From a virus: DNA of 33,698 nucleotides. Each line of letters opens with the position of its first letter. Positions within the stretch are counted from its first letter, which is position 1. Both the position numbers and the translations under genes were made by a program. The notes beneath the pieces are model-generated. The model did not search any database. It was not told the origin of the DNA and saw nothing but the letters and a program-made list of their open reading frames with translations. Shown here piece after piece: positions 9,496 through 21,526 of this stretch. The stretch covers positions 1 through 33,698 of IMG/VR virus record IMGVR_UViG_3300038424_000156; one strand, 5' to 3'.

Positions 9496-9501
9496 ATGGT
9501 C

Positions 9502-10089
9502 ATGAGTTTGAAGAAGCTGTCAACCTGGGCCAAGGAAAATGGGGTTCATTATCGCACTGCGATGATCTGGATGCACGAAGGAAAGCTTCCTGTGCAGGTT
9601 GTACAAACACCTGGCGGACACTACCGAGTGGTTGAGAAGTCAGTCGAGTCGCCAACGTCTGGTAAATCCGTGCTGTACGGCCGAGTGTCATCCCATGACC
9701 AGAAAGAGGATCTCGTGAGGCAGACGGCGAGGCTTCGATCATTCGCCGGCGGTCTTGGTTTGAAAGATGTCGAGATCGTGGAAGAGCTGGGCTCGGGCTT
9801 GAACGGCAAACGACCGAAGCTTCTCAAGCTGCTGGCCGATCCTACCGTTAAGAAGATTGTGGTGGAGCATCGGGATCGTCTCGCTCGCTTCGGAGTCGAG
9901 TACATCGAAGCGGCGTTGCAAGCCCAAGGACGCTTACTGGTTGTCGCCGAAGCGGGCGAGCAGAAGCTTGACTTGGTTCAAGACTTCATCGACGTGGTCA
10001 CGAGCATGTGTGCTCGCATCTACGGGCGACGAGCTGCTAGCAACAGAGCGAAGAGAGCGCTGGCAGCGGCGGCGGAGGAAACATCATGA
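9502..10089 (+). CDS. tnpA: IS607-family serine recombinase
   Basis: The product is 195 residues from ATG 9502 (ATG 9496 is two codons upstream but lies directly against the -10 box). Residues 3-45 form a MerR-like winged helix (LSTWAKENGVHYRTAMIW, HEGKLPVQVVQTPGGHYRV). The serine recombinase catalytic domain follows: LYGRVSSHDQKEDLVRQ with nucleophile Ser63, then GSGLNGKRPKL and the arginine-rich VVEHRDRLARFG. The C-terminus ends in a basic helix (GRRAASNRAKRAL). This head-to-tail order, DNA binding before catalysis, defines the IS607 type, whose enzymes move DNA through a double-strand serine-linked intermediate with little target preference. All catalytic parts look intact. The stop overlaps the next ORF (ATGA). 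Confidence 0.92.
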   Translation: MSLKKLSTWAKENGVHYRTAMIWMHEGKLPVQVVQTPGGHYRVVEKSVESPTSGKSVLYGRVSSHDQKEDLVRQTARLRSFAGGLGLKDVEIVEELGSGLNGKRPKLLKLLADPTVKKIVVEHRDRLARFGVEYIEAALQAQGRLLVVAEAGEQKLDLVQDFIDVVTSMCARIYGRRAASNRAKRALAAAAEETS

Positions 10090-10652
10090 GGTGCCTGGGA
10101 TTGTCACCACTTGGAAATCAGTGTCAAAACATAGCGGGCGGAGATGGTGTGTGTCGTAGACACCGAGGACCTGGAAAGTCGCGTCTTCCTGTTCCCACGA
10201 ATCTCGCAGCAGAGCAGGAGCGGCAGGCAACCGAGCAACAGTCAAAAAGGAAAACCAAACGGTTGCGTGTCGGGGCAAGTAGAGCAGCTTATGAGGCCGA
10301 ACAACAGCGAGCCTTGATCGAACTGACGACTAAGCTCTCCGACACGTCGTACAAGTCGATTGTAGAGGCTCGTCGAAATGGATTTGTCGAGTGGAAACGT
10401 TGGCTATATGGAGGCGAGCGGGTTGACATAAAAGGTCATACTCTTGTGCGGGGAAGTCTCGAAGCTCAATCGGTAACGGCGTGGAAGCGAGTTGGCAAGG
10501 TTGTGCTTCCCGACGTGGTTCCTCATGCAAAGCGAAGCTTCTTGATTCGAGGTGCCAAGCAAGTCACATTTCCCGTTTACCGGGAAGACCAAGTGGTCAC
10601 GATTGCCGAATGGCACGCTATCCGAGGTCGCATGGGAGCTTTTTCAGCGTGA
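10086..10652 (+). CDS. Zinc-finger protein between tnpA and tnpB, unknown role
   Basis: 188 residues, starting in the ATGA overlap with tnpA and ending in a GTGA overlap with tnpB, so the three are one translation unit. Residues 3-26 form a small treble-clef-type motif, Cys3-x9-Cys13-x9-Cys23-x2-His26 (RCLGLSPLGNQC, then GGDGVCRRH), as in short C-x-G-x-T-x-x-G-x-x-C zinc modules. After a charged linker the rest (about 75-188) is mixed alpha/beta, with VEWKRWLYGGERVDIKGHTL and VVLPDVVPHAKRSFLIRG. I do not recognise this second part. Ordinary IS607 elements contain only tnpA and tnpB. The base composition matches tnpA and tnpB, so it probably travels with them; it could be a DNA-binding accessory. 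Confidence 0.7.
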   Translation: MRCLGLSPLGNQCQNIAGGDGVCRRHRGPGKSRLPVPTNLAAEQERQATEQQSKRKTKRLRVGASRAAYEAEQQRALIELTTKLSDTSYKSIVEARRNGFVEWKRWLYGGERVDIKGHTLVRGSLEAQSVTAWKRVGKVVLPDVVPHAKRSFLIRGAKQVTFPVYREDQVVTIAEWHAIRGRMGAFSA

Positions 10653-12088
10653 AAAAGAGTCGCTTTCTCTACCTACATCCCGAGACGAATTCGGGCAAGG
10701 TAGCGTCTTTGGAAGCTCTCCAGACTGAGTACACTTCTTACCTGACGATCTGTGTTTCAACGATGCTCCAGGCTCGTCGATTCAGTCTCCCCAAGGGAGA
10801 GAGGCAGGCTTTCTTCCCTCGCTGCTCTGCACTGTCTTCTCAGATCGTCAAGAATGTGAGAGCCCACGCGGTTGCCATCGTGTCGGGCTGGGCGGCCAGC
10901 AAGTACACAGTGAAGCTCAGATCGGTTATCAGGGAAAGATTCAAGGGAGGCGAGTTTGACGAGGCGACTCGTTCGGCCCTCTGTATCCTTGGAAAGCGTC
11001 TGATCGACGTCCCGTCTGGAAAGGTCACCCAAGAGGCTCTCAATCTTTACTGGAGCTGGCTACTCGACGAAGGTGTAGTTGGAAAGTCTCCGAGGATATC
11101 CGACCGGGTGGGAATGCGATTGAGTGAGATGACCTCGATCTTCGGTAAGAGTGAGAACAGCAGGCTCGCTGTTTGGTGGATTGGGTTCAGCCATCTCGAA
11201 GCTGGGAAGTCGAGGATTCAACTCCCTCTCGTCGCCAACCCCTACGTGAAGGAAGCATCAGATGTTGCGAAGGGAGTGCTCGCTCGAAAGACCAGGCAAG
11301 GACGCTGGCGTTTCGAGGTTGTTGAACGCAAGAAATGGGAAGTGGCAGAGCTTCCCGAGAGCGCTCCCCGTCTGGGAGTGGACGTCGGACTGAACGTGAT
11401 GGCGGCCACCTCGGATGGAAGGCTTCTGGAAGCTGGGTTGAAGCCGAAATTCAATGCCTTGTATTACACAGTTCGCGATGTTCGAGCAAACCGCCAGCGA
11501 CAAGGTTTGACGGATGACTCTCCCAGGCTCAACGCTCTTGAAAGCCGGCTCACGGGACTCGTGAAGACGCTGGCGGGTACTTGCGCCAACAAGCTGATCG
11601 CCGCCCACCCCGAACATGTCTTTGTTGTTGAGGATCTCGATCTTCGCGGCTGTCGAGGTCAGAAGAGGTTCGCTTATCGAGCCTTGCATCACAGTCTTGA
11701 GTCAAAAGCTCCAACCGAAGTTGTCAACCCGGCTTACACTAGCCAGACGTGTCCTAACTGCGGTTTCGTGTCCCGCCGCAATCGAAACGGAATTAAATTT
11801 CAATGCTGCTACTGCGGCAAGATCTCCCACGCGGACGTGGTAGGAGGGTCCGGTTTGCTCAGACGTTCTGAGGACAAACAAATCGGTCTCGATGACTACC
11901 CCGCTGTGGTGAAGCCGATCCTGGAAGCACGACACGAGGAGTGGAAGAAATTCCAAGCCTCTCTCTGTGCCCTGGGACGGAAGAAAAACGCGCTCGGACC
12001 GTCGAGCCGGAGGCTTACTACCGAAGCATCGGGATTTTCCCGAGATCGGCACAGCTTCAAACTGAAGTCGGTTGGAGGTGGTCGATGA
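10649..12088 (+). CDS. tnpB: TnpB RNA-guided nuclease
   Basis: The product is 479 residues from GTG 10649, which overlaps the previous stop. ATG 10481 is in frame but would overlap the zinc-finger gene by 170 bases. The C-terminal half carries the RuvC-like nuclease: GVDVGLN with Asp245, FVVEDLDLRG with Glu328, and HADVVGG with Asp396. A four-cysteine zinc finger is inserted between the second and third motifs (C368-P-N-C371 and C386-C-Y-C389). The N-terminal half is helical and basic. TnpB proteins cut DNA guided by a short RNA transcribed from the element's right end. The usual DxNAAxN third motif reads DVVGGSGLLRR here, a variant of the DVVGAxNLL form. The catalytic residues are present, so it may be active. 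Confidence 0.9.
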   Translation: MKKSRFLYLHPETNSGKVASLEALQTEYTSYLTICVSTMLQARRFSLPKGERQAFFPRCSALSSQIVKNVRAHAVAIVSGWAASKYTVKLRSVIRERFKGGEFDEATRSALCILGKRLIDVPSGKVTQEALNLYWSWLLDEGVVGKSPRISDRVGMRLSEMTSIFGKSENSRLAVWWIGFSHLEAGKSRIQLPLVANPYVKEASDVAKGVLARKTRQGRWRFEVVERKKWEVAELPESAPRLGVDVGLNVMAATSDGRLLEAGLKPKFNALYYTVRDVRANRQRQGLTDDSPRLNALESRLTGLVKTLAGTCANKLIAAHPEHVFVVEDLDLRGCRGQKRFAYRALHHSLESKAPTEVVNPAYTSQTCPNCGFVSRRNRNGIKFQCCYCGKISHADVVGGSGLLRRSEDKQIGLDDYPAVVKPILEARHEEWKKFQASLCALGRKKNALGPSSRRLTTEASGFSRDRHSFKLKSVGGGR

Positions 12089-12122: not shown

Positions 12123-12893
12123 ATGCCTCTCGGGGTAAACACCAGCCCTGAACTGGCCAGCGAAATCTCGCGTCTCTACCGCGCCAAGCTCACGACCCGC
12201 CAGGTCGCTGCGCAAGTAGGGTTGAGTAAATCTGGCGTGTTGCTTGTGCTGCGTCGGCGGGGAGAAATCATCTCCAGCGGGCAGAGCCGCATGCGATCGC
12301 TGCATGATTATGACCTGACGCCGGTCATGGAAGTGCTCGACGGGGAATTGCTTGGTGACGGAGCGTATGCCTGGTCATCGAGTAAGAACAGCGCGCGCTT
12401 CGATATGACGGTGGCCAAGACCAACGAGGCTCACGTGGAATTGTTGCACGGGATCTTGTCCAAGCAGATGCCACTGAAGCTGGCTCCATCGACGGGATGG
12501 TATCTTTGGAAGGGACAGAAGATCATCTCGGATCGGATGCGGATGACCTCCCTGTTCTCAAGCTCTCTGGCGAACCAAAAGCTGCGCTGGTACCCGGACG
12601 GAAAGAAAAAGCAGGCACCTGATGATCTGGTGCTGACTCCAACGGTTCTCCGACACTGGTACTACGGAGACGGATCGATGTGCAGCGGCATCATGCTGTG
12701 CTCAGAACGGTACACAGATGATGTCCTTGAGGGGCTTCGGGCAAAGCTGCGAGCCCTAGGATTTGAGACCAAGAGGTACCTGGCACACGGTAGGAGAGGC
12801 CGCCTGCACATGGGAATGAAGGATTCTCGACGGTTTCTGGAGTTCATTGGCCCGTGCGAATTGGACTGCTACCGGCACAAGTGGATCATATGA
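12123..12893 (+). CDS. LAGLIDADG homing endonuclease
   Basis: A 256-residue protein. Residues about 8-50 are a helix-turn-helix (LTTRQVAAQVGLSKSGVLLV). Two LAGLIDADG-type helices follow: LDGELLGDG at 72-80 (Asp79) and VLRHWYYGDG at 175-184 (Asp183), each ending in the catalytic acid. Two motifs make a one-chain enzyme with a pseudo-twofold active site that cuts long DNA sites, usually an allele lacking the gene. A GGAGAA lies about 12 bases before the ATG. It stops at 12891-12893, one base before the start of the minor head gene. It is free-standing: the head gene is not split in frame by it, so it is not an intein. The DNA is less GC-rich than the head genes. Confidence 0.85.
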   Translation: MPLGVNTSPELASEISRLYRAKLTTRQVAAQVGLSKSGVLLVLRRRGEIISSGQSRMRSLHDYDLTPVMEVLDGELLGDGAYAWSSSKNSARFDMTVAKTNEAHVELLHGILSKQMPLKLAPSTGWYLWKGQKIISDRMRMTSLFSSSLANQKLRWYPDGKKKQAPDDLVLTPTVLRHWYYGDGSMCSGIMLCSERYTDDVLEGLRAKLRALGFETKRYLAHGRRGRLHMGMKDSRRFLEFIGPCELDCYRHKWII

Positions 12894-14932: not shown

Positions 14933-14954
14933 TGGGCTGTGCGCCGCGAAGAGT

Positions 14955-15304
14955 GGCCCCGCACGGCGAAGCCAAGCACAGTTCAACTTTTCTCCGTCAT
15001 CACCTGGCGCGGCCCCGCATCGCCTCGCGAAGCGCCGCAAAGCACAGTTCACGGTTTCTCCACCAATGCCCGGCAGCGCGGTGCCAAGCTCGGCGTGGCA
15101 AAGCACAGTTCAACTTTTCACTACGCCACGGCCAAGCCTCGCGGAGCAGCGCTGTGCTCGGCCAAGCACAGTTCACTATTTCAACACTTCTCCGCTCCGC
15201 GCAGCGAGGCCCCGCACGGCGAAGCCAAGCACAGTTCAACTTTTCCCCCATGACCAGGCCCAGCCACGCCAAGCTTCGCCACGCCCCGCTAAGCACAGTT
15301 CAAC
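14955..15304 (+). repeat. Direct-repeat array upstream of the ParB-like gene, six copies
   Basis: The box AAGCACAGTTCAACTTTTC, or a close form, begins at 14974, 15040, 15101, 15164, 15227 and 15291. All copies are on the + strand, with steps of 66, 61, 63, 63 and 64 bases, close to six helical turns. AGCACAGTTCA is common to all six; the tail varies (copy 2 CGGTTTCTC, copy 4 CTATTTC, copy 6 ends after CAAC). The 40-odd bases between boxes are GC-rich, with small dyads such as TGCC/GGCA. Copies 1 and 5 share 38 identical bases (14955-14992 and 15208-15245). The stretch from 14932 to 15323 holds no gene I can support. Confidence 0.9.
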
Positions 15305-15323
15305 CACCAACCAAGGACACAAC

Positions 15324-16022
15324 ATGCGAGTGAAACTTTCCGATCTCATCTTCGACAAGAAACTCTATCCACGCGTCGAGGTCAACTGGGTGACCGTCGT
15401 CAGCTACACCGACGCCATGCGGGCTGGCGAGAAATTCCCGCATATCGAAGTCGTCCAGCAGGGCGACAAGTGGCTCGTCGTGGATGGCTGGCATCGGTCG
15501 CACGCGGCCAAGGCGGCGCATCTCGAAACTATCGAGGCGGTCGTCATCGAGGCCCCATCCGATCGTGACCAGTTCCTCCGCGCCGTCGAGACCAACCTTC
15601 GCCACGGGCGCCATCTGAGCCCCTACGAGCGGGCCTGCATCGCGCAGCGGCTCTGCTCGGCCGAGTTCAAGTGGAGCCAGTCCAAGATCGCCGGCTTCCT
15701 CCACATGACCAAGGACAGCCTCAAGCGCATGCTCCGCAAGCGCGCGACCACCCCGGCGGCAGGCGCATGGCTCGGCAAAATCCACAAGGCCCCGCTGCAA
15801 CACCTCGTCGCGCAGGGCGAGGTCTCCTCGGAAGCGGAAGAAGCGGAGAGCATCCTTGCGGTCAAGAACCAGCAGCACCTCTTCAGCCAGGCGCTCGTCG
15901 TCTTGGAGAGCGGGATCGTCGACTTGGGCGACCCGAAGCTCTGCGCCATCCTGGACCAGCTCGCCGGCTGGTTCCGGGAGAACCGCCCGCGGGTTCGCGC
16001 TGGAATGGAGAAGGCGGCGTAA
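15324..16022 (+). CDS. ParB-like DNA-binding protein
   Basis: The product is 232 residues from ATG 15324, with AAGGA 9 bases before it. Residues about 35-80 are a ParB/Srx-type domain (FPHIEVVQQGDKWLVVDGWH, RSHAAKAA; key box VDGWHRSHAA at 53-62). In CTP-dependent ParB the arginine-rich GERRxRA box fills this place. Residues 99-140 form a ParB/KorB-like helix-turn-helix (SPYERACIAQRL, WSQSKIAGFLHMTKDSLKRM). The rest is a helical C-terminal part that may mediate dimerisation. There is no ParA partner in the window. The gene lies inside an array of eight direct repeats, six before and two after it, which suggests it binds them: as an autoregulator, as a segregation complex, or to organise phage DNA. 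That link is inference. Confidence 0.8.
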   Translation: MRVKLSDLIFDKKLYPRVEVNWVTVVSYTDAMRAGEKFPHIEVVQQGDKWLVVDGWHRSHAAKAAHLETIEAVVIEAPSDRDQFLRAVETNLRHGRHLSPYERACIAQRLCSAEFKWSQSKIAGFLHMTKDSLKRMLRKRATTPAAGAWLGKIHKAPLQHLVAQGEVSSEAEEAESILAVKNQQHLFSQALVVLESGIVDLGDPKLCAILDQLAGWFRENRPRVRAGMEKAA

Positions 16023-16071
16023 AGAGTTTTTCCGGCGCGGGGCCATGGCGAGGCGCCGCCGGGCAAAGCAC

Positions 16072-16142
16072 AGCACAGTTCAACTTTTCTTCCATCGCTG
16101 CGCCATGCCCGGCGCGGCTCGGCACAGCACAGCACAGTTCAA
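16072..16142 (+). repeat. Two further copies of the direct repeat downstream of the ParB-like gene
   Basis: AGCACAGTTCAACTTTTC at 16072-16089 and the shorter AGCACAGTTCAA at 16131-16142, 59 bases apart and in the same orientation as the six upstream copies. Each is preceded by extra CAGCA units and a GC-rich stretch. They start 50 bases after the ParB-like stop. Confidence 0.88.
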
Positions 16143-16183
16143 GCACGGCCCGCCCTCGCAAGGGGTGCGGGCTGTGGTGATAT

Positions 16184-19120: not shown

Positions 19121-20488
19121 ATGGCCGATTACCCCAATGGTTCGATCGTCAACACAAGCTTCAACGCCGGCGTGGTTTCGGCAGTCCAGGACCGTACGCT
19201 CCAGCGCACGTTCCGTGACCCGCTGTTCCCGAGGCTGCTGTACCGCCTCGAAGCGGTGGCGGAGCTCTGGCCGGTCAACTTGGGCGCGAACCAGACCTTC
19301 ACGCGGGCCGGGCTCATGCAGCCCACCACGCGCCCGCTGAGCCCGAACGCGGAGGTGCCGACGGCACAGTACCCGATCGAGCAGTGGGAGGCCACGGCGC
19401 AGCAGTTCGGCACCGGGATCGACACCCACATGCCGACCAGCTACGTGACGCTGGCGAGCCAGTACCTGCGCAACATGCACCAGCTCGGGGTGCACGCGGG
19501 CCAGAGCCTGAACCGCACCGTGCGCGACAAGCTCTACAACTGCTACGTCGCCGGCAACACCGTGGTCGTCGCGGCCGGCTACGGCGGCGGCTCCGCGCTC
19601 CCGGTGCAGAACCTCTGCGGGTTCACGACCCAACTCTTCAACGGCCGGCAGACGGTCGTCAGCGCGACGAACCCGCTGCCCATCACGATCGGCGGCGTCG
19701 CCAACACCGTGGTCGGCTTCACCTCGAACATCGCGGGCGACAGCATCCACTCGGGAACGCTGACCCTGGGCACCGCGGTCGGCGCGATCGCGGGCCGCGT
19801 GGTGGTTCTGGCCTCGAACGCCTCGCTGATCCTCTACTCCGGCGGTGGAGCCCGCGTCGACGACGTGACCGCGTCCGACCAGTTCCGCATGGCGGACATC
19901 CGCGCGTCCGTCGCGCAGCTCCAGTTCAACAACGTGCCCACCCACGAGGACGGCACGTACCACTATCACCTGGACCCGATCTCGCAGTCGGAGATCTTCG
20001 GCGACAACGAGTTCCAGCGCCTGAACCAGTCGATGCCGGACTACATCCACTACCGGAAGTTCGCCATCGCGTTCATGCTCGGGTGCACCTTCTACCGGAA
20101 CACCGAGGCGCCGAACGTCGCGACGGACAACCCCGATCCGACGGTCGGGTACACCACGGCCTTCGAGGAGACCAACCCGGCGGGCATCAACCTGCACCGG
20201 CCCATCGTGACCGGCCAGGGCGCCATCGAGGAGAAGTACCTCGACGAGTCGAAGTACATCTCCGAGGCGGGCGTGCAGGGCAAGATCGGCGAGTTCGCCG
20301 TGGTGAACGGCGGCATGCAGATCATGACCGAGCGGATCCGGCTCATCCTCCGTGCGCCGCTGGACCGCCTCCAGCAGACCACGTCGGCCGCCTGGTCCTT
20401 CTCGGGCGACTGGGCCATCCCGACCGACGCCACCGCGACCTCGAGCAACGCGCAGTTCAAGCGGGCCGTCGTCACCGTCCACGGCTAA
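19121..20488 (+). CDS. Major capsid protein
   Basis: 455 residues, starting at ATG 19121 with AGGAG before it. Capsid signs are the position after a scaffold, the size and the patterns: a short N-arm (TSFNAGVVSAVQDRTLQRTF), FPRLLYRLEAVAELWPVNLG, TRAGLMQPTTRPLSP, a spine-like helix (QYLRNMHQLGVHAGQSLNRT), a Gly/Ser/Val-rich beta insertion (about 195-250), MADIRASVAQLQFNNVPTHE, then YHYHLDPISQSEIFGDNEFQ and a C-terminal RIRLILRAPLDRLQQTTSAA. This order fits the HK97 fold, in which hundreds of copies build the icosahedral shell. Assignment is by context and pattern, not by an exact family match. A 370-base hairpin-rich gap follows the stop. Confidence 0.8.
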   Translation: MADYPNGSIVNTSFNAGVVSAVQDRTLQRTFRDPLFPRLLYRLEAVAELWPVNLGANQTFTRAGLMQPTTRPLSPNAEVPTAQYPIEQWEATAQQFGTGIDTHMPTSYVTLASQYLRNMHQLGVHAGQSLNRTVRDKLYNCYVAGNTVVVAAGYGGGSALPVQNLCGFTTQLFNGRQTVVSATNPLPITIGGVANTVVGFTSNIAGDSIHSGTLTLGTAVGAIAGRVVVLASNASLILYSGGGARVDDVTASDQFRMADIRASVAQLQFNNVPTHEDGTYHYHLDPISQSEIFGDNEFQRLNQSMPDYIHYRKFAIAFMLGCTFYRNTEAPNVATDNPDPTVGYTTAFEETNPAGINLHRPIVTGQGAIEEKYLDESKYISEAGVQGKIGEFAVVNGGMQIMTERIRLILRAPLDRLQQTTSAAWSFSGDWAIPTDATATSSNAQFKRAVVTVHG

Positions 20489-20512
20489 CCGTCGTGAGGC
20501 CATCGTGCAGGC

Positions 20513-20841
20513 GCGCACCAGACATCCGGCCGTCCATTCGACGGCCGTGGTGCGCCCGCGCAAGTTCACGCCAGCTTCGGCTGGCATGAAGTCGTCGCAT
20601 TTCGGTGCTTCGACTTTCGGTCGGACTCGTTCCGACCTTGCGGTGGACTTCGGTCCACCATTTCCGTCGACGTTGACGAAGGGCTTCGGCCCTACCCGCT
20701 CATGTCAACGGAGTCCAGCAGGTGGTCTTGTGGTGTTCGCCCCTGGCCGCGTTAGTGCCAGTGTAAGGGCGTCGGCTTCGGCCGTTCACCCTGACCCACT
20801 CTGACCCCTGCTGGATCTACTTTTCCGCATCTCGTGGAAAA
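20513..20841 (+). ncRNA. Structured RNA region with UUCG-tetraloop hairpins
   Basis: No gene is supported between 20489 and 20855, but the strand folds into a row of hairpins. (1) GCGCACCA/TGGTGCGC (20513-20520, 20548-20555) encloses GGCCGTC/GACGGCC. (2) GCCAGC-TTCG-GCTGGC, 20570-20585. (3) AAGTCG/CGACTT (20589, 20611) encloses GCAT-TTCG-GTGC. (4) GGTCGGA/TCCGACC, 20619-20637. (5) GGTGGAC-TTCG-GTCCACC, 20642-20659. (6) CGTTGAC/GTCAACG (20671, 20704) encloses GGGC-TTCG-GCCC. (7) TCCAGCAGG/CCTGCTGGA (20714-20722, 20807-20815) encloses AGGG/CCCT and CGGC-TTCG-GCCG. (8) TTTTCC/GGAAAA (20821, 20836) sits just before the next ribosome binding site. It may be a 3' leader-like mRNA domain, a processed RNA or an attenuator; the function is unknown. 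Confidence 0.7.
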
Positions 20842-20855
20842 AGGAGACCCGGACA

Positions 20856-21098
20856 ATGGCACAGCAGAACCAGAACCCCAGCCAGCAACAGCAGACCGAG
20901 CAGAGGCCCGTCGAGCCGAAGCTCCACACGTCGCCCAAGGAGCGCAAGTTCCTGGTCACGGAGTCCGCTGAGATTCCCCGCGGTGGTTCGTCCTATCTGC
21001 TGCGCAAGGGCAAGACGATCTCCAGCCACGGGTACGACATCGAGGCGCTCAAGCGCCAGGGCGTCAAGCTCACGGAGGTTCCCGAACCGGGGAACTAG
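20856..21098 (+). CDS. Small head-region protein, 80 aa
   Basis: AAGGAG precedes the ATG. Residues 1-30 are Gln/Pro-rich and disordered (MAQQNQNPSQQQQTEQRPVE). The rest (KFLVTESAEIPRGGSSYLLR; KGKTISSHGYDIEALKRQGV) looks like a small beta-beta-alpha fold. No family recognised. As the first gene after the structured RNA region, its translation may be affected by the last hairpin, whose 3' arm ends against the ribosome binding site. Confidence 0.6.
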   Translation: MAQQNQNPSQQQQTEQRPVEPKLHTSPKERKFLVTESAEIPRGGSSYLLRKGKTISSHGYDIEALKRQGVKLTEVPEPGN

Positions 21099-21103
21099 AG
21101 TTC

Positions 21104-21526
21104 ATGCCGGCAAGTCCACTCGCCACGCTGACAGAGGAAGAGAAGTCGCGGGTCCGATACCATCTCGGAGTTCCGCAGACCGATCCTGTGGCATCTGTGC
21201 AGCTTGGCTTTCCGGCTTCCGCGCAGCCCGCGTTTCTGGTCGAGCACGCGATGGAGTTGATCCCCGCCACGGCCATCGCGACGATCCGAAACGTGATCGC
21301 GAGGTGCGACGCGACCGACTGCGGGATCTTCGAGTCGCAAGATCGGCTCGTCGCCAAGTCGGTGGACGAGGTCGATCTGAACCCCGACGAGGCGGTTCTG
21401 CGCCGCCGCGAGTACCGCTTCTGGGTGCAGAAGCTGGCCGACAACCTCGGCGTGCCGTACAACGCCTACGCAGCAGCTTTCCAGTCCGGCGGCCCCATGC
21501 CGCTGAACGTCCCCGTTTTCAACTGA
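21104..21526 (+). CDS. Probable head-tail connector protein, 140 aa
   Basis: A helical 140-residue protein: TEEEKSRVRYHLGVP near the start, AFLVEHAMELIPATAIATIR, DEAVLRRREYRFWVQKLADN and a C-terminal Pro/Asn tail. A start of the type LTxxEKxxVRYHLG, with helices after it, is what I recall from small connector or adaptor proteins in the first tail-proximal gene after the capsid. The position fits a ring under the portal. No close family is certain. Only a weak Shine-Dalgarno (GGGGA) is seen. Confidence 0.55.
   Translation: MPASPLATLTEEEKSRVRYHLGVPQTDPVASVQLGFPASAQPAFLVEHAMELIPATAIATIRNVIARCDATDCGIFESQDRLVAKSVDEVDLNPDEAVLRRREYRFWVQKLADNLGVPYNAYAAAFQSGGPMPLNVPVFN

Follow-up and report, generated by a model that had tools for sequence, protein, structure and literature searches.

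The Mu-gpT-DE RNA takes its name from its place downstream of gpT, a Mu-like head gene. Its entry is RF03012 (PMC7657543), and it has a similar place to the phage element analyzed here but is 53 positions long. The GOLLD and ROOL RNAs of phages and prophages are large and highly structured, contain pseudoknots and have an unknown function, and GOLLD joins a conserved 3' region to a variable 5' region (PMC12286853). The element is likewise highly structured with a pseudoknot and, as in GOLLD, has a conserved 3' and a variable 5' domain (PMC12286853), but it spans 265–550 nt, has no sequence or covariance match to them, does not lie beside tRNAs, and is fixed between the capsid gene and a small head gene with a U-run end before the start codon. 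A GC-rich helix with a U-run directly behind it, close to the ribosome site of the following gene, is also found in intrinsic terminators and leaders of the terminator type (attenuators, riboswitch expression platforms); unlike theirs, the loop of the element is a folded domain of 80–100 nt that contains a conserved pseudoknot, and a hairpin array precedes it. The phi29 packaging RNA (pRNA) is likewise a structured RNA of a tailed phage, but no homology was found and the gene context differs; the likeness is a functional possibility only. Rfam 15 contained no matching family, either at the gathering threshold or at E values up to 5. The GOLLD and ROOL covariance models did not match, and Mu-gpT-DE had no match over the cut-off in any of 14 records. 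A search of open literature, Weinberg 2017 aside, returned no paper describing the element. The element is placed in none of GOLLD, ROOL or Mu-gpT-DE; the first two are nearest in kind and the third by place. Strong covariation, presented below, supports it as a family of structured RNAs, one that Rfam lacks.

The window is the whole 33,698-nt stretch of viral DNA (IMG/VR record IMGVR_UViG_3300038424_000156), and coordinates refer to it unless a relative is named. The element occupies a 367-nt gap between the major capsid protein gene (19121–20488, plus strand; PHROG 1357 major head protein, E = 1.2e-9; 35% identity to the capsid protein of Streptomyces phage Kromp) and a small plus-strand gene of 80 aa (20856–21098), whose ribosome binding site, AAGGAG, is at 20841–20846. 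The next plus-strand gene (21104–21526, ~140 aa) was compared by alignment, holds the neck position and has no match in Pfam or PHROG. No tRNA genes were found in the window. Other features of this DNA include an IS607-like pair in the head-gene region (9496–10089 and 10481–12088) that encodes a serine resolvase (PF00239) and a TnpB-like protein with a Cas12f1-like TNB domain. It is followed by a 256-aa reading frame (12123–12893) with the appearance of a putative homing endonuclease. At least seven copies of a ~55-nt repeat ending in AAGCACAGTTCAACTTTTC are spaced 59–66 nt apart at 14941–15302 and 16038–16151, flanking both sides of a gene (15066–16022) whose product looks ParB-like by eye; the repeats could be binding sites.

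An earlier note on this DNA described the gap as a field of hairpins with five UUCG loops and a 9-bp stem closing 84 bases near the 3' end. Both descriptions are exact. The UUCG loops at 20576, 20601, 20649, 20685 and 20777 cap stems of 6, 4, 7, 5 and 4 bp, respectively, and the 9-bp stem TCCAGCAGG/CCTGCTGGA pairs 20714–20722 with 20807–20815 around 84 nt. TTCG occurs 165 times on the plus strand of the window; a stem of at least 5 bp lies under only four of these, three of them in the element. The plus strand of the gap folds at −187.3 kcal/mol (z = −7.5), an energy reached by 0 of 100 shuffles. Folding energy alone does not decide the strand because the minus strand scores similarly (z = −7.1). 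The plus strand is indicated by two invariant G-U pairs, which become C-A mismatches on the opposite strand, and by the U-run.

Sequence comparison defined the conserved unit. A capsid-protein scan yielded a close group of four phage contigs at 82–85% identity, two of them identical across the element. The evolutionarily kept unit is a 265-nt core (20562–20826) that aligns without gaps in these four relatives at 78–95% identity. Of 82 pairs counted, 21 had changed on both sides, and 97.9% of the alignment cells were paired. Shuffled alignments gave 6.4 double-changed pairs, with none of 500 reaching the observed count, and sliding the partners by 1–3 columns left 0–2. The sequence upstream of the core (20489–20561) is more variable; it carries a predicted but poorly conserved hairpin region (GTGCAGGCGCGCACCA...TGGTGCGCCCGCGC, 20505–20561) that is replaced in relative L003.

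The core opens with the AAGU 5' strand of a terminal helix, P1 (20562–20565, partner 20819–20822), identified by RNAalifold and pair counts. Several relatives show a CAAG.TTC-like motif. Hairpins a (20566–20589), b (20590–20615) and d (20642–20659) have UUCG loops and contain two, three and two compensatory pairs, respectively. Hairpin c (20619–20637) also has a compensatory pair and a CUCGU pentaloop that recurs in L025 and L115 on different stems. Hairpin e (20663–20712), with the motif ACG..GGC-UUCG-GCC-UACC, covaries in helices 1–3 across 12 sequences. The closing helix of the 3' domain follows, with its 5' strand at 20713–20726 and its 3' strand at 20804–20816; compensatory changes affect 7 of its 13 pairs in the close group and all 13 over the 12 sequences. 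Pair counts in the same two sets support hairpin f2 (20767–20791, UUCG loop) and the 3' strand of the helix.

A capsid-protein profile gathered 80 loci, a set that was later extended, and inspection of the post-capsid gaps revealed similar hairpin fields in L016–L021, L023, L025, L027 and L029. Covariance model R1 was trained only on the four close members (20660–20826) and matched the same gap in L101 (1e-13), L103 (2e-11), L099 (6e-8), L097 (5e-7), L096 (7e-7), L111 (1e-5) and L098, over a full E range of 1e-13 to 0.004; labels from L101 onward denote the same contigs as those from L021 onward. Among 12 divergent members, 37 of 41 pairs are double-changed, a count reached by none of 500 shuffles, in an alignment that was fitted to the model and hence is biased towards its pairs. 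A second model, R2, finds L115, which was outside its training set, at 2e-17, and L116 and L118 weakly. Whole-record searches located one convincing copy of the element per phage; no convincing second copy was found in the same genomes, where G002 gave one weak partial match. Helix-preserving compensatory changes beyond the controls, the mark of a functional structured RNA, are present in both the close group and the 12 divergent phages. The proposal of a real RNA domain, which the earlier note would have abandoned had the stems not been kept by compensatory changes in relatives, is sustained. These results strongly support the element as a conserved structured RNA with one plus-strand fold. 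The hairpin field first described is a genuine plus-strand RNA with its core at 20562–20826, and the description understated it.

A hidden protein-coding gene, or the remnant of a self-splicing or mobile element, is an exceedingly improbable account of the same conservation. One reading frame is open in all four close relatives, and in L003 and L019 the RNA has an HNH gene or remnant as a neighbor. Substitutions are uniform over codon phase (e.g. 41/43/45), gaps shift the frame, and stop codons are not depleted relative to shuffles. The codon-phase and gap tests ruled out the shared open frame as a gene, and the absence of codon phase agrees with the prior view that no supported gene lies in the gap. 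The element matches neither group I introns nor HEARO nor any other Rfam family, and most carriers have no HNH gene.

The 3' part of the element, overlooked in the first reading, is its core and consists of the closing helix, an H-type pseudoknot and a hairpin. Comparison shows that the long, GC-rich closing helix encloses the pseudoknot and the hairpin and is followed by the U-run. In the window, pseudoknot stem S1 pairs 20738–20740 with 20749–20751 and S2 pairs 20743–20747 with 20757–20761. S1 is supported by crossing-helix comparison, covariation and a descriptor, and S2 by pseudoknot scans and descriptors. RNAalifold independently proposes S2 on the 12-sequence alignment, with many pair types. 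The pattern is an S1 of about CCC/GGG, an S2 of 4–6 bp and an A/U-rich loop. The crossing reads CGC-CC-CUGGC-C-GCG-UUAGU-GCCAG in the window, CCC-UACC-GGCUU-GGG-UUA-AAGCC in L098, CCC-U-CGUGCU-GGG-UUA-AGCACG in L154 and CCCA-U-CGUCG-UGGG-UUAAA-CGACG in L158. When each domain was scanned blindly for its best pseudoknot, the combined p was about 1e-6. A descriptor of closing helix, pseudoknot and T4 had 16 plus-strand and 3 minus-strand matches in 349 kb, with 12 of the 16 exactly before the small gene, and a relaxed version scored at least 24 in 30 of 74 post-capsid regions versus 0.9% of shuffles; the descriptor was partly shaped on these sequences, which include near-copies.

The window has UUUU at 20821–20824, within CUACUUUUCC and four bases beyond the helix, and relatives have up to nine U. 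The last 50 nt before the small gene contain a run of at least four T in 15 of 17 members and at least five in 9 of 17, compared with 3.9% and 1.0% of background 50-mers; L116 and L107 have only UUU. The run lies a few bases past the closing helix however far off the start codon is, a distance that ranges from 2 to 38. Across the family, a GC-rich helix is directly followed by a U-run, the arrangement of an intrinsic terminator. A strict terminator scan of the window, defined by loops of 3–8 nt, found none because the loop of the element is too large for that definition. The earlier statement that there is no T-run agrees with the strict scan and conflicts with the UUUU and its conservation in relatives. 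The accompanying statement that the domain is not a single terminator is correct only in part: the 3' domain resembles a terminator with a folded loop, and its U-run is conserved. It is quite unlikely that the element is merely an ordinary terminator beside a chance pile of hairpins. A U-run and a GC-rich helix fit such a terminator, and ordinary terminators occupy the post-capsid gap of relatives without the RNA, but a terminator needs neither 21 to 37 compensatory pairs nor a hairpin array, nor a pseudoknot and loops conserved over deep divergence. As a complete account, this explanation is already refuted.

Gene order distinguishes the two neighbors of the RNA. In the window, the RNA comes immediately after the capsid stop codon. 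Capsid gene and RNA are separated in L003 by a terminator plus an HNH gene, in L111 by a terminator plus a gene of 163 aa, and in L115 by three genes over 2 kb. L019 has an HNH-like remnant, and the weaker member L116 an opposing reading frame, on the capsid side of the RNA. All five inserts are on the capsid side, and the small-gene side is never interrupted. Mainly because the inserts never split the RNA from the small gene, we treat it as a 5' leader rather than the 3' end of the capsid mRNA. The first reading had offered protection of the 3' end of the abundant capsid mRNA as one function. UUCG hairpins resist exonucleases, and the position in the window after the capsid stop codon would suit a stabilizer, but the capsid genes of L003, L111 and L115 are followed by their own terminator, by other genes or by both, and the RNA stays with the small gene. 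These arrangements contradict a role as capsid mRNA stabilizer and make it very improbable. HNH endonuclease genes or remnants are found near the RNA in separate phages (L003, 7421–8299; L019, about 2190–2370; L177, downstream of the small gene), and a homing hot spot is possible.

The small gene is the constant partner of the RNA. Structure prediction gave its product a disordered N-terminus and a confident C-terminal β-β-β-β-α-β domain. Fold searches returned weak matches only, to a GINS domain and the C-terminal domain of lambda gpFI, and did not identify the protein. The gene lies between the capsid and neck genes, which is the place of FI in lambda. The predicted likeness to gpFI is a lead only.

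On the capsid tree, the 17 carriers fall inside one clade of 24 (support 100/100) and require only four changes. Clade members without the element are L104, L106, L110, L112 and L119; for some non-carriers, the contig stops too soon to judge (L102, L109). Forms of 400–550 nt are found in numerous further phages with this type of capsid, beyond that clade, between the capsid and small genes (L154, L158, L170, L205, L212, L216, L222 and others), in phages down to 35% capsid identity. Altogether, pseudoknot-bearing relatives of 265–550 nt are present in dozens of uncultured phages. The large forms have the pseudoknot domain and the U-run and, upstream in ~25 sequences, an almost invariant internal loop, GC-AAACCC...GGAACC-GC, on variable, covarying stems. 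Examples of this loop within L162–L229 are at 5138 in L216, 1655 in L222 and 5151 in L205, and it looks like a tertiary or protein contact. The window, a compact member, lacks it. R2 matches the large forms only weakly, and homology between compact and large forms rests on their common position, pseudoknot and U-run. Further conserved hairpins (GTTGTGTGGCATTCG, TCGTGTCGCTGT) between the capsid and small genes of L147 and L158 suggest that large forms have more domains than described here. An unrelated hairpin-rich stretch in L137 (3420–3830) has the repeated unit CCGCCCGCGAAGC.ACCTTGGGCTAACGCCCA.CGCGGGCTTT.

Searches for a host or an isolate returned no further member. No relative emerged when bacterial genomes were scanned with the capsid profile. 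In the same host search, the AAACCC/GGAACC motif gave 21 matches, all judged to be chance, with no capsid gene near and the outer stem mostly missing. Phage isolates contained only distant capsid relatives, and a similar RNA was not found in them. The DNA pattern TCCCNACC..GGGTTA..CTTCGG recovered five stretches, of which only those in the already known contigs L133 and L134 were real.

Attenuation is the best supported of the functions first guessed for this RNA. We tentatively favor, at somewhat below an even chance, a structured 5' leader that contains its own regulatable terminator, ahead of the small head gene and the neck genes on the late transcript. The closing helix and U-run would act as an intrinsic terminator whose efficiency is set by folding, or by protein or ligand binding, of the pseudoknot domain and perhaps also of the upstream array. 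Polymerase would either stop and release a transcript with a compactly folded end or continue through the small gene to the neck and tail genes. The result would be a set ratio of capsid to downstream head proteins, perhaps through autoregulation. The covariation, pseudoknot, U-run, plus-strand orientation and linkage to the small gene argue for a leader of this type, as do the ordinary terminators in the post-capsid gap of relatives without the RNA. It accounts for the helix with its U-run, for a stretch between that run and the start codon too small for a promoter, and for the linkage to the downstream gene. Terminator loops of ~80–100 nt are unusual, however, the U-run of the window is short and offset from the helix, two members have only UUU, no competing antiterminator fold emerged, and several clade members lack the element. 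In the close group, the AAGU 5' end is paired to some of the U-run, an arrangement that would fit a discrete, closed-ended RNA as well.

Such a discrete RNA is possible, though less probable: an abundant, ornate phage RNA of 265–550 nt resembling GOLLD and ROOL that acts in trans, e.g. in head assembly, DNA packaging or takeover of the host machinery. The U-run would be its own 3' terminator, and its 5' end would arise by processing or from a promoter. This reading explains the elaborate multi-helix fold with its 5'–3' closing helix P1 and the conserved loops, including invariant, unpaired-looking stretches and the almost invariant AAACCC/GGAACC loop on covarying stems in the 400–550-nt forms. 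The conserved 3' and variable 5' domains, as in GOLLD (PMC12286853), also point this way. The small gene in the lambda FI place, with its weak fold match to the gpFI C-terminal domain, is consistent with it. Against it, the RNA is always immediately 5' of one gene, which suggests action in cis, no promoter-like site was found in the gap of the window, there are no tRNA neighbors, and Rfam gives no match to GOLLD or ROOL. Regulated termination and a discrete RNA are compatible, and both can be true.

The RNA and its pseudoknot are conserved in dozens of phages even though capsid identity is as low as 35%, and it sits where head-gene expression must split between the capsid and the minor head proteins. 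A bolder proposal, which we consider unlikely, is a new class of ornate RNA (265–550 nt), common across a large group of tailed, uncultured phages, that is freed by its own pseudoknot-bearing terminator and serves as a discrete molecule in head assembly or DNA packaging. If true, the phi29 pRNA would be joined by a second kind of phage head RNA. The element gives direct access to the way in which phages balance capsid against minor head proteins, or to the roles of RNA in head building.
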